A stretch of 64,000 nt of DNA from Jeotgalibaca ciconiae (GTDB lineage Bacteria > Bacillota > Bacilli > Lactobacillales > Aerococcaceae): the NCBI RefSeq assembly GCF_003955755.1, contig NZ_CP034465.1, positions 558,001-622,000 of the forward strand. Direction: 5' to 3'. A program made the position numbers and the translations under genes. The notes beneath the pieces are model-generated. The model was not told the DNA's origin and made no database searches. It was given only the letters and a program-made list of their open reading frames with translations. Of the stretch, positions 3,928 through 64,000 are shown piece by piece (position 1 is the stretch's first letter; each line of letters starts with the position of its first letter).

Positions 3928-6756
3928 TTACTCCAATAGTGTATCGATATCTTCCAACATACTTTTCTCTTTTTTAATGAAATAAGCGATATAAGCATAT
4001 TCTGGTTTTGGAATATGTATAGCAAGTGTACCTTCGAATTTTTTGATTACTTGAAGTAGTTCTGGGTCTATTTCGATATTATTCTGTGAGTCAACATTTG
4101 ATAAGCTATCTTGATGAACAAGACGCTCAATCACGCCTGCTAGATGCAAGGCTAAATTGATATGGAAAGCATAGCCTGATTCTGGATGTGTCCGTAGTTG
4201 TCCACATTCTTCAACAAAATCCCAAATCGGCTGTATCAATTTTTTCGCATTCAAAAATGTATAATGTTCTTCCAAGAAATTATGAATCAAACGTTTTGCA
4301 GATCCGCTGTCCTCAATTGCTTGCATCGGTTGAACTTTCGTCAAGTGGTTAATTTTTCCCAGCAAGATTTCTGCATCTTTCTCAATGAAATTCTCCAATG
4401 GAATAAAAGGTGCGGAGAGTTTTGGATCTACAATCCCCGTCGTTGCGACAATCGTATAGCGATCTTGCCAAATTTTTATATTCTTATTTAAATCAGGAAT
4501 CGAGCTCGTCAAGACTTTCAACTGATTATCTTTTTGCTTTGCTAAAGGTTTTTCGATAATTTCTTTTAATTTTTGGGCGGTCCCTTCCCCTGTTGCACAA
4601 ATAGCAATCATTACCGGCGGCTTCGGCATCTCCTGAAATTTGGTTCCTTTTTCAACCATTGCACTTGAATAGCCATTAAAACGATCAAGTGTTTCATGCA
4701 GGAGATCAATATCAGCATCCACCAACGAAGCTTTACGAGCAGCTTCAAGTACCATAGGTGTCGAAACCATCTCAATCGTACGAACATGAATGCCCGTTTC
4801 TTTTGTCAGATTTTCTTCAAAGGTCGTCAGGGAACCCATGTCCACCATGAGAAGAACCCCACTTCCTTCATTTGCTCGAATAACCGCTTGCTTGACCTTT
4901 TCATATATTTCTATCGGTGACATATCGAGTGGCATATCTACTGCAATAATCCCGCTTAACTCAAGCAATTCTTCAGCCACTTGCGCCATGCTGGTCGCTG
5001 TAGAATTTCCATGAGTTACAATGACGACACCAATCCGGCCGCTCACTTCTTCCTCTTGAAGGGAAACCAGTAATACTGTTAAATAGTAGATTTCAATTTC
5101 CGGTACCTCCACCTGAAAGAACTCTGCAATCCGTTCTTTTAGGAATGTCGCCACTTCAATTTCGGTCGTGTACGTGACAGCCATTTCTTTAATACGTTCA
5201 TTTAAACTTCGGATCTCCCCGATTTGGATTTTATTCAGCAGCGAACTAATATGTAAACTAATCGCGTAAATGTAATTTTGCTTAAATGTCGTCTTCAATG
5301 CTTTTTCAATATCCCCCGATACTTCATGGATAAACTGAATGACTTCTTTGGAAACAACTTCCGCCAAACGCGAATCCGTCTCAAAAGAAAAACCGTGGTT
5401 CCGATAAAAAGATTTTAGATGAACATTGATATCAGTTGAAATGTATTGATTAATCGATTCCTGGTCCAATCCTTCTTCTTCTAATAATGTGGCTTTATCT
5501 CCGATAATATCATACAAATTATAAGGCAGTTCATAGGCATCCGTTTTGACTTGGTAAAAGGGTTCATTTGGATATACGGTAATCTGTGCTTCTGTTATTT
5601 TCGATAAGGCAGATCGGTACCTGCTATTAGAAGATTTCCCAACCAAATAAGTTTGAATGGATTCAGGTAAATCTCGAGCAGTCAGATCAATTTGCTCTTG
5701 TCCAAATTGATTCATGAACCCACGGGCACAAACCAGTTGAATACCTGATTTCAGCTGGCCAATATTTCCATAACCCACGCTGGCAATCAAGGCCTTCACA
5801 ACATCTTCCGTAAGAGTGATTTTTTTCTGAATGCGAGTTGCCTCAAGACTTACCAACAGTTTCACTAAATCAAGTTGTTCGCTAACAGAACGCTCTTTGA
5901 AGGATGGCAATTGAATCATGATTGGAATTCGTCGCATAAAGGTATCCAAAAATGTCGACTTTGGATCTTCTGTCGTTGCACAGACAATTCGAACATTTGC
6001 AGCACGTGTTTTGCCGGACTCTCCCAACCGACTGTACATTCCAGTATCCATAAAATAGAAAATCATCTCTTGCCCTTCTGGCGGCAACCGGTGAATTTCA
6101 TCCAGGAAAAGCATCCCTTGATCCGCTTGTTGGATCAGTCCATCTTTGGACGCGGTCGCTCCAGTAAAAGCACCCTGACTGTATCCAAACAAATGACTCA
6201 TTAACAACTGGGGATTATTCGCATAGTCAGCACAATTAAAAACAATCAATTCTTTTTCTTCATCGATAATGTGGTTCGTTTGGGCGTAATGGAACATCGC
6301 ATGAGCAAAATAAGTCTTTCCAGAGCCAGTTGGACCGGTAATCAAGGTATTCAAACCTTTTGGCGGATATAGAACCGCGGCTTTTGCCTGATCGACTGCA
6401 TTTTTCATACTGCTGTTAGCACCAATCATTGTTCGAAAAACATCTTCTATGCTTGATTTTTCTGTCTGCTGTTTATTTTGTTTAATCGGTCTCTCTTTGT
6501 AACTTGAAACGTGTTTTGTGAGCGGTTGATGGGGTCCTTTCGCTATCGTAAAATAACGAACGGGACGGCCTTCTGTTTTCCCTAATTTGCCTTCTCTTAC
6601 CAACTGATTCAAGTCCTTGGAAACGTTACTCCGTTGAATCTGAAGCGAATCCGCTACCATTTTCGTTGTAACTCCCTGGCCCATTTCTAAGTCCATTTCG
6701 GTTAGCGTATCCGTCGCTTCTTTAATATAGTAAAAAATATGATCAATCCGATTCAA
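3928..6756 (-). CDS. levR: LevR/MptR-type sigma-54-dependent, PTS-regulated activator
   Basis: I place the start at TTG 6756, which follows GGGAG; an open frame continues upstream but reads like non-coding sequence. This gives 942 residues. In order there are: a winged helix (about 1-75, RSNVSKDLNQL); an AAA+ sigma-54-interacting domain (about 110-340) with Walker A GPTGSGKT, the GAFTGA loop and Walker B MLFLDEI; a PRD; an EIIA-like domain (VVIVTHGN); an EIIB-like domain (CATGEGTAQK); and a C-terminal PRD. Phosphorylation by HPr and the PTS sets its activity. It should activate the adjacent PTS operon, which has a -24/-12 promoter. Confidence 0.93.
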   Translation of the reverse strand: MNRIDHIFYYIKEATDTLTEMDLEMGQGVTTKMVADSLQIQRSNVSKDLNQLVREGKLGKTEGRPVRYFTIAKGPHQPLTKHVSSYKERPIKQNKQQTEKSSIEDVFRTMIGANSSMKNAVDQAKAAVLYPPKGLNTLITGPTGSGKTYFAHAMFHYAQTNHIIDEEKELIVFNCADYANNPQLLMSHLFGYSQGAFTGATASKDGLIQQADQGMLFLDEIHRLPPEGQEMIFYFMDTGMYSRLGESGKTRAANVRIVCATTEDPKSTFLDTFMRRIPIMIQLPSFKERSVSEQLDLVKLLVSLEATRIQKKITLTEDVVKALIASVGYGNIGQLKSGIQLVCARGFMNQFGQEQIDLTARDLPESIQTYLVGKSSNSRYRSALSKITEAQITVYPNEPFYQVKTDAYELPYNLYDIIGDKATLLEEEGLDQESINQYISTDINVHLKSFYRNHGFSFETDSRLAEVVSKEVIQFIHEVSGDIEKALKTTFKQNYIYAISLHISSLLNKIQIGEIRSLNERIKEMAVTYTTEIEVATFLKERIAEFFQVEVPEIEIYYLTVLLVSLQEEEVSGRIGVVIVTHGNSTATSMAQVAEELLELSGIIAVDMPLDMSPIEIYEKVKQAVIRANEGSGVLLMVDMGSLTTFEENLTKETGIHVRTIEMVSTPMVLEAARKASLVDADIDLLHETLDRFNGYSSAMVEKGTKFQEMPKPPVMIAICATGEGTAQKLKEIIEKPLAKQKDNQLKVLTSSIPDLNKNIKIWQDRYTIVATTGIVDPKLSAPFIPLENFIEKDAEILLGKINHLTKVQPMQAIEDSGSAKRLIHNFLEEHYTFLNAKKLIQPIWDFVEECGQLRTHPESGYAFHINLALHLAGVIERLVHQDSLSNVDSQNNIEIDPELLQVIKKFEGTLAIHIPKPEYAYIAYFIKKEKSMLEDIDTLLE

Positions 6757-57923: not shown

Positions 57924-58838
57924 CTATTTTATGATGACACACTCTCTTCTCAATAAAGTCACTTTTACTTTTTCCATAAACAGCTTTGCTATGGGTGTAA
58001 GTGCACGTTTTGAATTCGTGACAATTCCCAGGGTGTGAGTAGTTGCGTCCACTAACGGTTTCAAAACGATGTGTTGATTGATGAATCCATCTACAATCCC
58101 CAAACCAGAAGCGTAAGCATCTGATTCACACAGCAAATTCATAAGCGTTCCTCGATCATTGGTATAAATGACCGGTTGTGATTCGTAAGCTTCAATCGGG
58201 TCTTCATTAAAATCAGGTGCGCTTTGTTCTTCTTGACTGAATCGAACTTGTGGATAATCCCATAAATCTTGGCGTGTGATTTCATTTTTTGTTGCAAGTG
58301 GATGATCTTGTCGTAAAAAAATTTGTGTTTGAAAATCTCCTAATGGCTCGAACTGTAATCCTTCTTGTTGAAAATAACGTTCTAATACACGGCGATTCCC
58401 TTCATCTATATAAAGAATGCCTAATTCACTTTTGAAGTCTCGGACACTCTCTAGATTTTTTTGAGTAGTTGTTTCTACTAAGTGAAAATTCTGATAGTCA
58501 TCTTTAAATTGTTCGATTACTTCTAAAAAAGGCTGAGATAAAAAATCATACCGTTGTGTTGTAATCGTAAAATCCTTCTTGAAATTCGTTCGATAGCGTT
58601 TTTCTAATAAGTTCACTTGATCCAAAATACGATTGGCATAAACGAGAAAATCACTGCCTTCTTCTGTCAATCGAACCCCTGATTTCGAGCGTAAAAATAT
58701 ACGAACACCTAATTCAATTTCTAAATCTTTAATAGCACTGGATAAACTTGGTTGTGTCACAAATAATTGTTTTGCTGCTTCACTAAAACTCCCAGCTTTA
58801 GCAATCGTTACGACATATCGACATTGTTGAATATTCAT
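57924..58838 (-). CDS. LysR-family regulator, probably of sulfur or amino-acid metabolism
   Basis: ATG 58838 after GAGGGTGG gives 304 residues. The helix-turn-helix reads MNIQQCRYVVTIAKAGSFSEAAKQLFVTQPSLSSAIKDLEIELG, followed by an effector-binding domain. Its mRNA appears to start about 200 bases upstream and to pass through a Met/Cys leader peptide and a terminator. LysR regulators such as CmbR, CysB and CysL control cysteine genes and use O-acetylserine-like effectors. Here the neighbouring transport operon would be the natural target. Confidence 0.9.
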   Translation of the reverse strand: MNIQQCRYVVTIAKAGSFSEAAKQLFVTQPSLSSAIKDLEIELGVRIFLRSKSGVRLTEEGSDFLVYANRILDQVNLLEKRYRTNFKKDFTITTQRYDFLSQPFLEVIEQFKDDYQNFHLVETTTQKNLESVRDFKSELGILYIDEGNRRVLERYFQQEGLQFEPLGDFQTQIFLRQDHPLATKNEITRQDLWDYPQVRFSQEEQSAPDFNEDPIEAYESQPVIYTNDRGTLMNLLCESDAYASGLGIVDGFINQHIVLKPLVDATTHTLGIVTNSKRALTPIAKLFMEKVKVTLLRRECVIIK

Positions 58839-58866
58839 TATTCCACCCTCTTCGGTTCTAACAAAC

Positions 58867-58896
58867 AAAAAGACCCGATAAATAAATTATCGAGTC
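58867..58896 (-). terminator. Attenuator terminator before the LysR gene
   Basis: On the minus strand GACTCGATAA (58896-58887) pairs with TTATCGGGTC (58881-58872) around a 5-base loop and is followed by TTTTTG. It lies between the leader ORF and the LysR ribosome site. The 5' arm GACTCG can instead pair with CGAGTC at 58943-58938. Confidence 0.88.
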
Positions 58897-58947
58897 CCTT
58901 GGCTAAGTTAGATTTGTATACAGTACACTTATCTAATGACTCGCCAA
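58891..58947 (-). promoter_or_regulatory. Antiterminator stem overlapping the leader ORF
   Basis: On the minus strand CGAGTC-A-TTAGAT (58943-58931) pairs with ATCTAA (58913-58908) and GACTCG (58896-58891). A TTGGC/GCCAA helix (58947-58943 with 58903-58899) is a further alternative. The GACTCG segment is shared with the terminator, so only one structure can form. Confidence 0.65.
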
Positions 58948-59021
58948 AGAACATGATGGCACATACACATCATGTTAGCAGCAACTGCATATTCATTTAT
59001 AGAAATAAGTTCATTTGCCAT
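58929..59021 (-). CDS. Met/Cys-rich leader peptide (30 residues) of the LysR attenuator
   Basis: ATG 59021 follows GAGGTG by 6 bases. The peptide begins MANELISINEYAVAAN and continues MMCMCHHVLWRVIR, so residues 17-21 are five sulfur amino acids in a row. The ORF ends at TAA 58929, 32 bases before the terminator stem. Its last codons (CGA GTC ATT AGA) form the 5' arm of an antiterminator. A ribosome stalled at the Cys codons would leave this arm free; one reaching the stop would cover it. It has its own TTGACA promoter. No protein function beyond leader translation is proposed. Confidence 0.75.
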   Translation of the reverse strand: MANELISINEYAVAANMMCMCHHVLWRVIR

Positions 59022-59056
59022 CTTGTTCACCTCGACATTAGAATTTGATTAGATTT

Positions 59057-59084
59057 ATCTTAGCATAGTATTTGAGATTGTCAA
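59057..59084 (-). promoter_or_regulatory. Sigma-A promoter of the leader-LysR transcript
   Basis: TTGACA (59084-59079) and TAAGAT (59062-59057) are 16 bases apart on the minus strand. The -35 overlaps the stop codon of the M20 hydrolase gene. Transcription would begin near 59050, about 30 bases before the leader ATG. Confidence 0.75.
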
Positions 59085-60253
59085 TGGAGAGCCTCTTCTG
59101 TAAGTCTTTTTTTAGAAGTTGCTTTCAGATGATTAATGATATGTGTTGCAGAATAGAGATAATATTGAATTGCGTATACCAACGCCTCATCTTGAACTAA
59201 AAAATTGGGATGATGCCATTCATAGGGGGCACCTGTCCCGATAAAAGCAAAGATTCCAGGTATTTCCTGTTGATAAAAAGCAAAGTCTTCTCCTCCAAGC
59301 GTTACTTCAGGCTCGACAATATCTGCAAAAATCGAAACTGCTTCTTTTACTTGTTCGGTTAATATTAAATCATTATGGACAGAAGGAGGGCTCGGTATCC
59401 AAATAATCTCACTTTTTTGGTTTACTGCTCCAGCATAGGCGGTTACAATTTGTTCAAAAAGCTGTTTCGTTTTTTGTTGAATATCTTCTTTAAATGTTCG
59501 AATCGTTCCTTTTAAAACAACTGATTCTGGAATGACATTCCATGTGTTTCCACCATCAATTTTTGTAACACTGACCACCACCGTATCTAGGGGAGAAACG
59601 TGACGACTCACAATAGTTTGTAAGCTTGTCACAATTTGACTTGCGGTTACTAAAGGATCATTCCCATTATGCGGGGCAGCTGCATGCGTACCAACGCCTG
59701 TGATAATCACTTCAAATTGGTCAACTGCCGCCATCAAATGTCCAGACTTGAGTCCTATCGTTCCTATTGGTAAATCCGGTTTATTATGGTAGCCAATGAT
59801 TTGTTCTACACCTTCTAAAGCTCCTGCTTCAATCACTTGTCTGGCCCCAAGATTTTGTTCCTCTGCCGGCTGAAAGATTAAGCGAATACGTCCTTTCAGC
59901 TTCTCTTCTCGTTCTTTCAAAATAGCAGCTGCTCCTAAAAGTGATGCAGTATGAAAATCATGCCCGCACGCATGCATAACTCCTTGTACTTTTGATTGAT
60001 AAGATAATTGTGTACTTTCTGTAATTGGTAAAGCATCAATATCTGCACGTAATGCAATAACGGGTCCTTCTTTCCCGATTTCCGCTACTACACCTGTTGC
60101 TAGATCCAATGGAAGAATGGGAATACTTCTTTCTTTCAAAAATGACTTGATGACTTCCGTCGTTCGATACTCTTCTCCAGAAAGTTCTGGGTATTGATGA
60201 ATATCTTTACGAATCGAGATGATTTCTGCTAACAATTCTTCTGATACATTCAC
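59081..60253 (-). CDS. M20-family amidohydrolase/deacylase (YxeP-like)
   Basis: GTG 60253, about 10 bases after AAAGG, gives 390 residues. Zinc ligands of the M20D type are present: ACGHDFH, the Glu pair in QPAEEQ, the His of IGYHNKP and HHPNF near the end. Such enzymes remove N-acyl groups from amino acids. With a GNAT and a polar amino-acid importer in the operon it recalls the Bacillus yxe and ytm clusters, where acetylation and deacetylation release cysteine from S-modified cysteines. Confidence 0.87.
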   Translation of the reverse strand: MNVSEELLAEIISIRKDIHQYPELSGEEYRTTEVIKSFLKERSIPILPLDLATGVVAEIGKEGPVIALRADIDALPITESTQLSYQSKVQGVMHACGHDFHTASLLGAAAILKEREEKLKGRIRLIFQPAEEQNLGARQVIEAGALEGVEQIIGYHNKPDLPIGTIGLKSGHLMAAVDQFEVIITGVGTHAAAPHNGNDPLVTASQIVTSLQTIVSRHVSPLDTVVVSVTKIDGGNTWNVIPESVVLKGTIRTFKEDIQQKTKQLFEQIVTAYAGAVNQKSEIIWIPSPPSVHNDLILTEQVKEAVSIFADIVEPEVTLGGEDFAFYQQEIPGIFAFIGTGAPYEWHHPNFLVQDEALVYAIQYYLYSATHIINHLKATSKKRLTEEALH

Positions 60254-60269
60254 TGTTTCAAATCCTTTC

Positions 60270-60695
60270 CTACACAAAATTCATTTTTCTTAGTTCTTCA
60301 ATATGACTCTCATGATAAATCGCCATTCCTGTTTTCATAGATTCAAAACCTAACTGTTTATACCAGCTAACCGTGTTTGGATGAGTATACAATGTAATGT
60401 TACATTTCGAAAGATGATCAACAAACGTCTTAATAATAAACTTTCCGATTCCCTGTCCTTGATAGTCCTTGTCAACAGCGATATTATAGATCGCCGCTTG
60501 AGCAATATAATCAGTCAGTGCACGTCCACACCCAATCAGCTGATTATCCAAGAGAATAAATACCACTTCCTGACTATGTTCAAAGACAAATTTTGTCTCC
60601 AGAACCGTGTGATTAGTCAATCCAAATCCTTTTAAAAGCTGATTTACTTCCGCCCAGTTGATGTCTTGTATGTTTCGTTTTACTTGAAAATCCAT
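60270..60695 (-). CDS. GNAT-family N-acetyltransferase
   Basis: A 141-residue GNAT with the acetyl-CoA loop VDKDYQGQGIGKFI and a C-terminal YKQLGFE. It lies between the ABC ATPase (15-base gap) and the M20 hydrolase. In Bacillus sulfur-salvage operons an acetyltransferase (YxeL, SnaA) N-acetylates an S-substituted cysteine before cleavage and an M20 enzyme later removes the acetyl group. I infer the same division of labour here. Confidence 0.85.
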   Translation of the reverse strand: MDFQVKRNIQDINWAEVNQLLKGFGLTNHTVLETKFVFEHSQEVVFILLDNQLIGCGRALTDYIAQAAIYNIAVDKDYQGQGIGKFIIKTFVDHLSKCNITLYTHPNTVSWYKQLGFESMKTGMAIYHESHIEELRKMNFV

Positions 60696-60710
60696 ACTCT
60701 CTTCGTCTCC

Positions 60711-61469
60711 TTAAATAGCAAGTTTATGAATATGATCTCGATAATAAGTAGACAAAAACTGCTTGGTTCGTTCTTGTTTTGGGTGTTCAAAGACTTCTTC
60801 AGCAGTGCCGGATTCGATGATTTTCCCTTGATCTAAAAATAGGACACGGTCAGCAACTTTACGCACAAAATTCATTTCGTGAGATACTAGTAACATGGTG
60901 TTTCCTTCTTTTGCCGCTTTTTTTATGGTATCCAAAACTTCGCCTACTAATTCCGGATCAAGTGCAGAGGTTGGTTCATCTAGTAGTAATAATTCTGGTT
61001 GCATTGCTAAAGCACGTGCAATAGCTACACGTTGTTGTTGACCGCCGGAAAGATGTTTTGGATAAAAGTCTGCCCGCTCAATCATACCAACTTTTTTCAG
61101 CTGTTGCTCTGCAATTTCTTTTGCCTCTTGCTTAGGAAGACCTTTTACAATCACTAATCCTTCCATCACATTTTCTAAAGCTGTCTTCTGTTGAAAAAGG
61201 TTAAACTGCTGAAAAACCATTGCCGTTAATTTTCTCAATTGTAAAACATCAACTTTCTTTGCTTGGGCGATATCTAAGTGGAAATTATTTAGCTGAATCG
61301 TACCAGACTCTCCTTGCTCAAGGAAATTAAGCGAGCGTAACAAAGTTGATTTCCCAGCACCCGATGAACCAATAATCGCCACTACTTGTCCCGGCAAAAT
61401 ATCAAATGAGATATCATTCAACACCGTATTTTGATGAAATGTTTTTGTTAAGTTTTTAATCTGTATCAT
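60711..61469 (-). CDS. Polar amino-acid ABC transporter, ATP-binding protein
   Basis: ATG 61469 overlaps the permease stop (ATGA), giving 252 residues. Walker A GSSGAGKST, Q-loop VFQQFNLF, signature LSGGQQQR, Walker B LLLLDEPTSALDPE and the switch His in VSHEMNF are intact. It drives the adjacent permease. The closest known types carry cystine or S-modified cysteines (TcyN, YxeO). Confidence 0.93.
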   Translation of the reverse strand: MIQIKNLTKTFHQNTVLNDISFDILPGQVVAIIGSSGAGKSTLLRSLNFLEQGESGTIQLNNFHLDIAQAKKVDVLQLRKLTAMVFQQFNLFQQKTALENVMEGLVIVKGLPKQEAKEIAEQQLKKVGMIERADFYPKHLSGGQQQRVAIARALAMQPELLLLDEPTSALDPELVGEVLDTIKKAAKEGNTMLLVSHEMNFVRKVADRVLFLDQGKIIESGTAEEVFEHPKQERTKQFLSTYYRDHIHKLAI

Positions 61470-62206
61470 AACCAATCTCCCGCCTTTCTTGCTCGTAGCT
61501 GAACGTTGTCCGGAATACTAATTTTCTTTTCTACAAACTGGATTAATTGTTCAATCATAATCGTTACTCCCCAGTAGATTACTGCTAGTGCCAAATAAAC
61601 TTCAAAGTAGCGATAATTAGCACCAGCAATAATTTTAGCTTGCGCTGTCATCTCCACAACCGCGCAAACAAAGGCCAATGATGTTCCTTTTAACAGTCCG
61701 ATTAATGTATTTCCTAAAGTTGGCAAAGCTACTACAAATGCCTCTGGTATAATCACGCGTGCCAACACTTGTGGATAAGTCATCCCTAAAGATTGTGCTG
61801 CTTCGATTTGCCCCTTATTAACCGATTGCAGTGCTCCACGAATATTTTCTGAATTATATGCTCCTTCATTAACCGCAAATGTCACTAACACAAAAAGCAG
61901 CGAAGGAATATTATTAATATTAAAATCTGTGCCATTATTATAATTGTAATATTTTAACAATAATGGAATTCCATTGTAGGACAAATACAATTGTACGATT
62001 AATGGTGTCCCTCGTACAAAAGATACAAATACAGCAAATATCTGTGATAGCACGGGTATTTTATTCATCTTTACGATTGCAATCAATAAACCTAGTAACA
62101 GTCCAAGTAACATCGATAAAATAGTAATTTCCAAGGTCATCGGCAAATATACCAATAACCTTGGAATCGAAGTAAGAACCGTTTCAAAATCAAATATTTT
62201 TCCCAT
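61466..62206 (-). CDS. Polar amino-acid ABC transporter, permease
   Basis: This 246-residue permease of the His/Glu/Gln type has about five helices and the EAA loop (EAAQSLGMTYPQVLARVIIPEAF). Its N-terminal part includes FVRGTPLIVQLYL, conserved in this family. It likely works as a homodimer with the ATPase and the lipoprotein. Confidence 0.92.
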   Translation of the reverse strand: MGKIFDFETVLTSIPRLLVYLPMTLEITILSMLLGLLLGLLIAIVKMNKIPVLSQIFAVFVSFVRGTPLIVQLYLSYNGIPLLLKYYNYNNGTDFNINNIPSLLFVLVTFAVNEGAYNSENIRGALQSVNKGQIEAAQSLGMTYPQVLARVIIPEAFVVALPTLGNTLIGLLKGTSLAFVCAVVEMTAQAKIIAGANYRYFEVYLALAVIYWGVTIMIEQLIQFVEKKISIPDNVQLRARKAGDWL

Positions 62207-62219
62207 TTAATCCCTACTC

Positions 62220-63056
62220 CTATTCTTTCGGTGCAAAGTCTTCTCCAAAATATTTCTCACTAATCTCAGTAATTGTTCCATCTTCAATCGCTTCTTTTAA
62301 AGCTGCATTGATTTCTTCTACAAGAGCTGCACCATCATCTGTTTTACTAATTAACAGATAACTGTAAGGAGCACCGATTCTAGATGAGTCTTCTTCGCTC
62401 AATTCGATTAGCTTTAATTTTAAGCCATGTTCTTCAATAAACAAAGAAGCCATCGCTTTATCAATCAATTGAAAATCGTGCTTACCACTCTCAACGCCTT
62501 GTAAAACAACTAACAGTTCTGCTTCAGAGTAATTAATGTCGATGAGTGCATCTGGATTTTCTTCATTATACTTTTCCAAAGCCGTGGCATAATTCAAACC
62601 AGGTGATACTTCTGTTGATTTGCCTACAAGGTCATTGAAATTATTAATTTCTGTTGATTCCTCTGCCACTGCAATCACATATTGATTTTTGAAAATTGCG
62701 TCTGAAAAGATGTATTTCTCTCTCCGCTCATCATTACTTGCAAAATTATTTGCTCCTACTTGATAACGATCTGTATCAAGACCAGATAATACAGAAGCAC
62801 GCTCTGCTTTTTCAAAAGAAATATCATATTTATCTATTTTTTCAAATACCGCTTCTACAAGTTCAATATCATAACCAACCAGCTCGTCATTTTCATTTAC
62901 ATAAGTAAAGGGTTTTGGCGCACCAGAAGTCGCAATAACAATTTTTTCTTTGCTGCTTTCTTCACTCGTTTCTGCAGCATTTGTACTTCCGCAAGCTGCT
63001 AAGAGCAACGCTCCTGTAAGAGTTAAAAATGTTTTAACTATTTGATTCTTTTTCAT
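62220..63056 (-). CDS. Amino-acid-binding lipoprotein of the ABC transporter
   Basis: A 278-residue family-3 solute-binding protein with a lipobox LLLAAC at about 17-22 followed by a Ser/Glu linker. The segments KPFTYVNENDELVGYDIELVEAVFEKI and GANNFASNDERREKYIFSDAIF are typical of cystine/polar amino-acid binders. Its ATG overlaps the stop of the upstream gene (ATGA). Confidence 0.93.
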   Translation of the reverse strand: MKKNQIVKTFLTLTGALLLAACGSTNAAETSEESSKEKIVIATSGAPKPFTYVNENDELVGYDIELVEAVFEKIDKYDISFEKAERASVLSGLDTDRYQVGANNFASNDERREKYIFSDAIFKNQYVIAVAEESTEINNFNDLVGKSTEVSPGLNYATALEKYNEENPDALIDINYSEAELLVVLQGVESGKHDFQLIDKAMASLFIEEHGLKLKLIELSEEDSSRIGAPYSYLLISKTDDGAALVEEINAALKEAIEDGTITEISEKYFGEDFAPKE

Positions 63057-64000
63057 TTGACTTCCTCATTCCGTTTGAATTTTTCACTAGGAGTCTTACT
63101 TAATAAATAACGTTCTTGTGGCTGGTTCCATAAGGTTTCATAATCAATTTTGTCCCAAAAACGGGTGTTGTAATCAATAAAAATTGACTTTGGCTTTTCT
63201 GTGCTCTTTGCTAAATCAGCAAAATAAGTGTTGTTTTTAAAAGCCGGAATCTCATACAAATCTCTGGCATATCCCCAGATATTTTTAAAGTCCACAATGC
63301 GATTGCGAATTGGACCCAAGTTTTTAAAGTAACGAGTATCGAAACGCGCTAACGTTACAAATAAACGAATATCTGAATCCGTTACATAATCACCGAATAG
63401 AAACCGATTGTTTTCTAGGCGCTCTTCAATCTCATCAAATGCTTGGTACAAGTTATTGTATGCATCATTATATGCTTCTAAAGATTGAGCAAACATTGCT
63501 TTATAAACGCCATTGTTCACATGTTCGAATAGATAATCATTATATGCATCGATTTCTTCCCGCAATTCTTCCGGATACAAATCCGGTGCATCTGGTGCTT
63601 GAAAAGGACGAAATTCTGTTTCAAAATAATTTGTTAGCCAGACATAGTCATTGTTGATGACTCTTTTCGTTTTTACATCCACGACTGCTGGTACCGTAGC
63701 ACGACCTTTATACTCTGGATCTGCATTAGCATATAGTTCGCTTAAAAATTGGACATCTAAAACGGGATCCTTGTTTCCTTCATCAAAAACAAATTCCCAT
63801 CCTAGATCTTTTTCACGGGGCGTTCTGCCTACTAAATTTACACTAATGACATCTTGAAGTCCTAATAACTCAATGGCAATCGATGCACGATTCGACCAGT
63901 GGCATCCCTTTGCCCAAACTAAACGATATCGTCCAGCTTCAACTGGATTGTGTTCTTTTCCTGATCCAAAGGGCGTGTCAAAATGATTTTTCTGACGATG
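63053..64000 (-). CDS. Glutathionyl-hydroquinone reductase/GST-like protein (5' end outside window)
   Basis: The frame is open from 63053 to the right edge, so the N-terminus is missing. The start of the visible part (AGRYRLVWAKGCHWSNRASIAIELLGLQDVISVNLV) matches the thioredoxin fold of YqjG/ECM4 enzymes, with the catalytic Cys in GCHW. The C-terminal helical GST domain follows (NRFLFGDYVTDSDIRLFVTLARFDTRY). Family members remove glutathione or thiols from conjugates. It is first in the visible sulfur operon and may free thiol from imported adducts. The GTG at 63682 is internal. Confidence 0.88.
   Translation of the reverse strand, partial: HRQKNHFDTPFGSGKEHNPVEAGRYRLVWAKGCHWSNRASIAIELLGLQDVISVNLVGRTPREKDLGWEFVFDEGNKDPVLDVQFLSELYANADPEYKGRATVPAVVDVKTKRVINNDYVWLTNYFETEFRPFQAPDAPDLYPEELREEIDAYNDYLFEHVNNGVYKAMFAQSLEAYNDAYNNLYQAFDEIEERLENNRFLFGDYVTDSDIRLFVTLARFDTRYFKNLGPIRNRIVDFKNIWGYARDLYEIPAFKNNTYFADLAKSTEKPKSIFIDYNTRFWDKIDYETLWNQPQERYLLSKTPSEKFKRNEEVK

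Follow-up and report, generated by a model that had tools for sequence, protein, structure and literature searches.

A predicted cysteine-responsive leader-peptide attenuator ahead of a LysR-type regulator gene in Jeotgalibaca ciconiae

Leader attenuators and cysteine control in related systems

In the Firmicutes, amino acids are usually sensed by T-boxes, riboswitches or repressor proteins, and leader-peptide attenuators are, to our knowledge, rare there. Among the described cases, Rli60 before ilv-leu in Listeria is an amino-acid leader attenuator (PMC5864092), and leader attenuators have been predicted for hisS and hisZ in bacilli (PMC2965389). With respect to cysteine, the predicted leader uORFC-8-2 lies before cysS in Rhodobacterales and has tandem Cys codons at about positions 14-15 as well as a terminator (PMC8632094), and Cys leader peptides lacking a conserved terminator have been predicted before cysteine genes in Mycobacterium, Propionibacterium and Bifidobacterium (PMC1262725). 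A search of largely open-access literature found no published example of a Cys-codon leader from a Firmicute.

On the minus strand of a 64,000-nucleotide stretch of the J. ciconiae genome (contig NZ_CP034465.1, positions 558,001 to 622,000; hereafter the window), a short leader rich in Cys and Met codons precedes a gene for a LysR-type regulator. With a probability of roughly 0.8, sequence comparisons suggest that it attenuates the transcription of this gene through a translating ribosome and represents a Cys/Met leader family of its own; while this kind of attenuator is already known from trp and his as well as from the Cys leaders of Rhodobacterales and Actinobacteria, the family is newly recognised. 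Like attenuators of the trp/his type, it combines a short open reading frame (ORF) containing regulatory codons with a putative antiterminator that overlaps an intrinsic terminator, the position of the waiting ribosome presumably deciding between the two. Unlike them, it has Cys/Met codons, its first hairpin (P1) abuts the antiterminator (P2) rather than competing with it, and it heads uptake operons as well as the gene of a LysR regulator. As in uORFC-8-2 (PMC8632094), the first stem contains two Cys codons and a terminator stem (here P3) comes last, but the present leader differs in its Cys-x-Cys arrangement, in its location before LysR and uptake genes and in its occurrence in Lactobacillales, and does not qualify as a member of uORFC-8-2. 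In contrast to the actinobacterial Cys leaders, both the intrinsic terminator and the antiterminator are conserved in the present family.

With regard to the regulated gene, the closest counterpart is YtlI (AscR) of B. subtilis and Listeria, a LysR activator of the ytmI/tcy cystine importer, with CymR-CysK and CodY as repressors of its own gene (PMC9239247). A LysR regulator accompanied by a cystine importer operon, its own gene being off at plentiful cysteine, would be common to both systems. However, whereas the ytlI gene is under the control of CymR-CysK and CodY, the LysR gene described here would be under that of a predicted RNA leader, so that RNA may occupy here the position in the circuit that those proteins hold there. 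T-boxes, finally, likewise sense tRNA charging and control Firmicute sulfur genes, and one of them heads the operon adjacent to the present leader; but a T-box binds the tRNA directly and without translation, whereas the mechanism proposed here is based on translation.

The leader of the window and its predicted hairpins

The elements of the leader that had been listed in the preliminary description are all present on the minus strand. A sequence resembling a promoter (59057-59084) consists of a -35 hexamer TTGACA (59084-59079), a 16-nt spacer and a -10 hexamer TAAGAT (59062-59057) preceded by TG. It is followed by the Shine-Dalgarno sequence GAGGTG (59028-59033) and by a 30-codon ORF (58929-59021) encoding MANELISINEYAVAANMMCMCHHVLWRVIR, of which codons 17-21 (ATG ATG TGT ATG TGC; 58959-58973) form the run Met-Met-Cys-Met-Cys. 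The sequence CTTTGGC begins 12 nt after the start of the final Cys codon of this copy. Downstream lies the gene that is predicted to be regulated (57924-58838), coding for a LysR-type protein of 304 aa with HTH_1 and LysR_substrate domains.

Three hairpins can be drawn for the transcript. P1 (58950-58976, minus strand), which the preliminary description had overlooked, is a stem of 9 bp formed by AACATGATG and CATCATGTT that carries the Cys codons, as TGT ATG TGC, in its loop. P2 (58897-58949, minus strand), the putative antiterminator, pairs CTTTGGC (58949-58943) with GCCAAGG (58903-58897) and has an apical stem TAGAT/ATCTA. P3 (58867-58900, minus strand) is a strong intrinsic terminator made up of AAGGGACTCGATAA and TTATCGGGTC with a U tract behind them. 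At its 5' base it shares nucleotides with P2, and it lies about 30 bases ahead of the LysR start codon. As proposed earlier, a U-tailed terminator stem thus precedes the regulated gene, and the one found at 58900-58868 of the minus strand is the sole such stem within a stretch of 600 bases, where 0.2 would be expected. When compared to dinucleotide-preserving shuffles, the leader folds with a z-score of -4.5, none of 200 shuffled sequences being as stable, which is in part due to the terminator.

The antiterminator that had originally been named, GACTCG (58896-58891) paired with CGAGTC (58943-58938), can form but has not stood up to comparison. Its fold is weaker than the alternative by 4.8 kcal/mol before the terminator has been made and by 17.6 kcal/mol afterwards, and CGAGTC is missing in all five relatives tested. 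Judged by sequence conservation and predicted folding, the conserved antiterminator is CTTTGGC/GCCAAGG and not GACTCG/CGAGTC.

It might be argued that P3 merely ends the amidohydrolase operon upstream and that the LysR gene has its own promoter further down, the terminator indeed following an M20 gene and a weak promoter-like site overlapping the LysR start. However, a good promoter and an ORF with a Shine-Dalgarno sequence lie between the M20 gene and the terminator, and in other genomes the same element is found behind unrelated upstream genes, which makes this explanation very improbable. The M20 amidohydrolase gene belongs to the end of the neighbouring operon (59081-63682, minus strand), together with genes for a GNAT protein, a TcyN-like ATPase, a cystine-type permease, a family-3 binding protein and a GST_C_2 protein; as a whole, the operon comprises GNAT, GST-like genes, binding protein, permease, TcyN-like ATPase, GNAT and M20. 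Three of its genes, adjacent to each other, resemble GST_C_2 proteins or glutathionyl-hydroquinone reductases (window 63053-64000 and L111:1-2524).

Distribution and covariation of the family

The LysR ortholog of Enterococcus lemanii (79%) is preceded by the same element, in which the N-terminal part of the peptide differs, the C-terminal part reads NMMAMCHHVLWQPIR, and CTTTGGC/GCGAAAG is present but CGAGTC absent. A covariance model built solely from these two copies and without reference to gene content (R2) was applied to the order (398 genomes) and to the family of E. lemanii (106 genomes) and found further copies at E-values of 3e-4 to 2e-9 per genome. Besides the genome of the window and E. 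lemanii (G339), the genomes concerned are G375, G345, G409, G412, G415, G405 and G410, with a relic in G051, and a rescan revealed a second, more diverged copy between LysR and a UroD-like gene in G405, G410 and G412. This amounts to 12 copies in nine genomes (the genome of the window, E. lemanii and seven more of the latter's family, which are referred to as enterococci on the grounds of sharing that family) plus one decayed relic. With a second model (R3) made from these 12 sequences, genuine copies reach 78-102 bits and the G051 relic 55, and no other hit exceeds 39 bits or has a Cys peptide; applied to the family of E. lemanii, the class (400 genomes) and the order (398 genomes), it yielded no additional credible copy, although some distant ones could be missed. 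Matches below about 40 bits (L066-L076, L086-L091, L100-L110, L112-L114) were discarded as they lack a Cys peptide, and those inspected were mostly ordinary gene-end terminators.

No second copy was found in the genome of the window itself, no match to the leader among plasmids by blastn, and no such leader at those LysR homologues of the family with about 40% identity that were inspected or at the streptococcal LysR relatives (L010-L013). A pattern scan of viral contigs gave 13 matches. The peptide pattern M-C-H-H-x-L-W occurs in the genome of the window and once more among 77 genomes of the family, and is so rare because the relatives read a different frame. In the Rfam comparison the leader was unmatched, and neither an S-box/SAM riboswitch nor any other known leader reached the gathering score in the 64 kb; the T-box model (RF00230, with its stem I specifier loop and T-box bulge) had no match within the window, and at the loci of the relatives a single T-box, far from the leader, was the only hit.

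All copies have in common a Shine-Dalgarno sequence (retained in E. lemanii and the enterococci), a short ORF with a Met/Cys cluster towards its end, P1, P2 (CTTTGGC/GCCAAAG) and a U-tailed P3. In each of the 12 copies the pairing partner of CTTTRG is a segment of the terminator base, with one mismatch in E. lemanii. In the three second copies CTTTGG has changed to CTTTAG jointly with a change of CCAAAG to CTAAAG, and ATGAT/ATCAT of P1 has become ATGGC/GCCGT. Compensatory changes are thus G-C to A-U and C-G to U-A in P2, and A-U to G-C and U-A to C-G in P1, where two pairs changed on both sides, a number reached in 7 of 500 shuffles; as the changes stem from few evolutionary events, they amount to good, though not massive, covariation. 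Every one of the 12 copies has 4-7 nt shared by P2 and P3, which costs P3 6.4-11.3 kcal/mol in 11 of them. In the window the two hairpins exclude each other weakly: P3 loses 3.8 kcal/mol and still retains 10 bp beside the U tract, and P2 and P3 coexist in the minimum-energy fold; by folding energy this copy is predicted to be the weakest switch of the twelve and might be leaky or drifting.

The same comparison bears on the idea that AACATGATG..CATCATGTT is a DNA operator serving, e.g., the autoregulation of LysR, with an incidental ORF. A perfect 9-bp dyad shortly upstream of the LysR gene would indeed suit an operator. However, the dyad is located about 80-107 bases downstream of the -10 hexamer and is transcribed, its loop length is not constant (9 or 10, and in one copy 4 less), and in about half of the copies a G-U-compatible change in P1 breaks the symmetry of the DNA while keeping the RNA pair; nor would an operator require the Cys codons, the Shine-Dalgarno sequence and the frame to be kept. 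An operator is therefore highly unlikely.

As to gene context, the element directly precedes LysR genes of the same clade in the window, E. lemanii, G405, G410 and G412, and a UroD-like gene with a cystine-type ABC importer behind it in G345, G409 and at the second copies of G405, G410 and G412; in G415 it precedes a UroD-like gene at which the contig stretch ends, and in G375 an operon of gamma-lyase, cysteine synthase, GST, GNAT and ABC genes. The family is thus portable, being found ahead of genes for regulation, for uptake and for synthesis. The leader-linked LysR proteins form one clade that adjoins the streptococcal ones with modest support (80/71). A UroD-like gene (PF01208) is regularly the first gene of leader-headed cystine-type ABC operons (L092, L093, L094, L095, L096, L078).

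The preliminary proposal of sulfur-responsive leader-peptide attenuation of the LysR gene therefore holds in outline, as the twelve copies lie ahead of sulfur or LysR genes, keep the Met/Cys cluster and contain compensated base pairs, but it fails with respect to the GACTCG/CGAGTC pairing, which is not conserved in the relatives. Similarly, the leader does stand before LysR, as had been stressed, but in the relatives it is not limited to the regulator gene and also heads transport and synthesis operons.

Codons, signal and proposed mechanism

The Cys-containing peptides end in MMCxC[PA]SCSL, MACQCMPCSL, MMCMCHHVLW or MMAMCHHVLW, with 2-4 Cys and 2-5 internal Met residues each. Eleven of the 12 copies have Cys at the position equivalent to the final loop Cys of the window. 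From the start of the last Cys codon in the P1 loop to CTTTGG the distance is 12-13 nt in nine of ten copies measured and 9 nt in G410b, while the stop codon lies 14-18 nt past the start of CTTTGG (3 nt in G410b). The front edge of a ribosome is, by the size of its footprint, about 12-13 nt away from the codon in the A site. A ribosome at the stop codon would therefore cover CTTTGG, and the conserved Cys codons are at the right distance from the switch. The exception is G412a, which codes for Tyr in place of the second Cys and has lost its stop codon; its leader ORF continues in frame across the terminator and on into LysR (L093:3839-4939).

Most copies read the decisive segment as MMCxC[PA]SCSL; the window and E. 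lemanii read MMxMCHHVLW because one base is missing after the second Cys codon, and the second copy of G410 has suffered a 4-base deletion and reads MACQCRVL before its stop. Neither of these independent frame changes has disturbed the P1 and P2 nucleotides or the Cys codons, and this favours sensing of codons, that is, of tRNA, over sensing of the nascent peptide. In the latter case the leader peptide (e.g. CHHVLW..IR or CPSCSLAY) would stall the ribosome on a small molecule or metal, and the near-identity of the C-terminal residues in the window and E. lemanii as well as a Cys-x-Cys-x-x-Cys pattern that could bind metal might speak for it. However, the residues past the second Cys differ wholly between the lineages while the nucleotides CATCATGTTCTTTGG are kept, so that the RNA stems account for the conservation; also, the regulated genes are sulfur genes and not genes for metal or drug export. 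Peptide sensing thus seems improbable, though slightly less so than an operator. Both TGT and TGC are used for the Cys codons of the P1 loop while the paired TGTTCTTTRG is invariant, which indicates that the loop is under constraint at the level of codons and the stems at that of RNA.

Whether methionine might be the main or an equal signal, with Met-tRNA sensed as well as Cys-tRNA, is a more serious question. In favour of it are the internal Met codons, some of which lie outside P1 (KMMMPN, QMMSKN), and the T-box heading the neighbouring operon just outside the window (L111:3019-3268, minus strand, i.e. G000:C1:624519-624768; 106.8 bits), which has AUG at the specifier position, as assigned by alignment to the Rfam consensus, and UGGU in the bulge, and by its sequence probably responds to tRNA-Met. 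A similar T-box with specifier AUG (L014:2653-2932; 84.5 bits, just below the Rfam cut-off) takes the place of the leader before a distant Lactobacillales LysR ortholog. Against it, the Met-Met pair lies within the P1 stem, which largely accounts for it, and is Met-Ala in three copies, whereas the loop Cys is kept in both codon forms and the last loop Cys, not a Met, is positioned to expose CTTTGG just in time; the Cys codons are thus the better-supported sensor, and an equal or leading role of methionine is possible but doubtful. With similar reserve, a single leader could be thought to read both Cys- and Met-tRNA for LysR while the target operon is read via the Met T-box, i.e. two RNA sensors of tRNA, unlike in type, in series; were this dual reading true, the leader of the window would owe its survival of a frameshift to the fact that nothing but the Cys codons and the RNA counts.

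For the attenuator as preferred here, the signal would be charged Cys-tRNA, and perhaps Met-tRNA too. Transcription would begin from the promoter at 59084-59057 and a ribosome would start on the leader ORF; P1 would form and may, as a pausing or synchronising hairpin, hold RNA polymerase in step with the ribosome. With ample cysteine the ribosome would reach the stop codon and cover CTTTGGC, so that P2 could not form, P3 would terminate and LysR would remain unread. If charged Cys-tRNA is scarce, the ribosome would stall at a Cys codon of the P1 loop with CTTTGGC just free, and P2 would form and capture AAGG or AAAGG at the base of P3, whereby termination would be weakened and LysR made. LysR would then presumably activate genes of the cystine-type importer, the neighbouring operon being its likely target, and the leader would provide the cysteine signal for the LysR regulon; in several relatives the switch appears to be placed directly on importer or cysteine-synthesis operons. 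The predicted element thus very probably lets its genes be read only when cysteine is scarce.

The natural mutants (frame changes, stop loss and relic) are clean material for learning what such a leader peptide cannot do without. The relic occurs in G051, a close relative from the genus of the window, where the leader sequence is found behind the same M20 gene. The LysR ortholog resides about 51 kb away with its own promoter and without a leader, and a rearrangement must therefore have split the operon and the regulator. The orphaned leader has lost its Shine-Dalgarno sequence, its frame, CTTTGG and a clean terminator, as is to be expected if selection acts on the leader only while it controls a gene. 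A tyrosine-integrase-like gene adjoins the decayed leader (L079:4574-5722 and 6320-6433).
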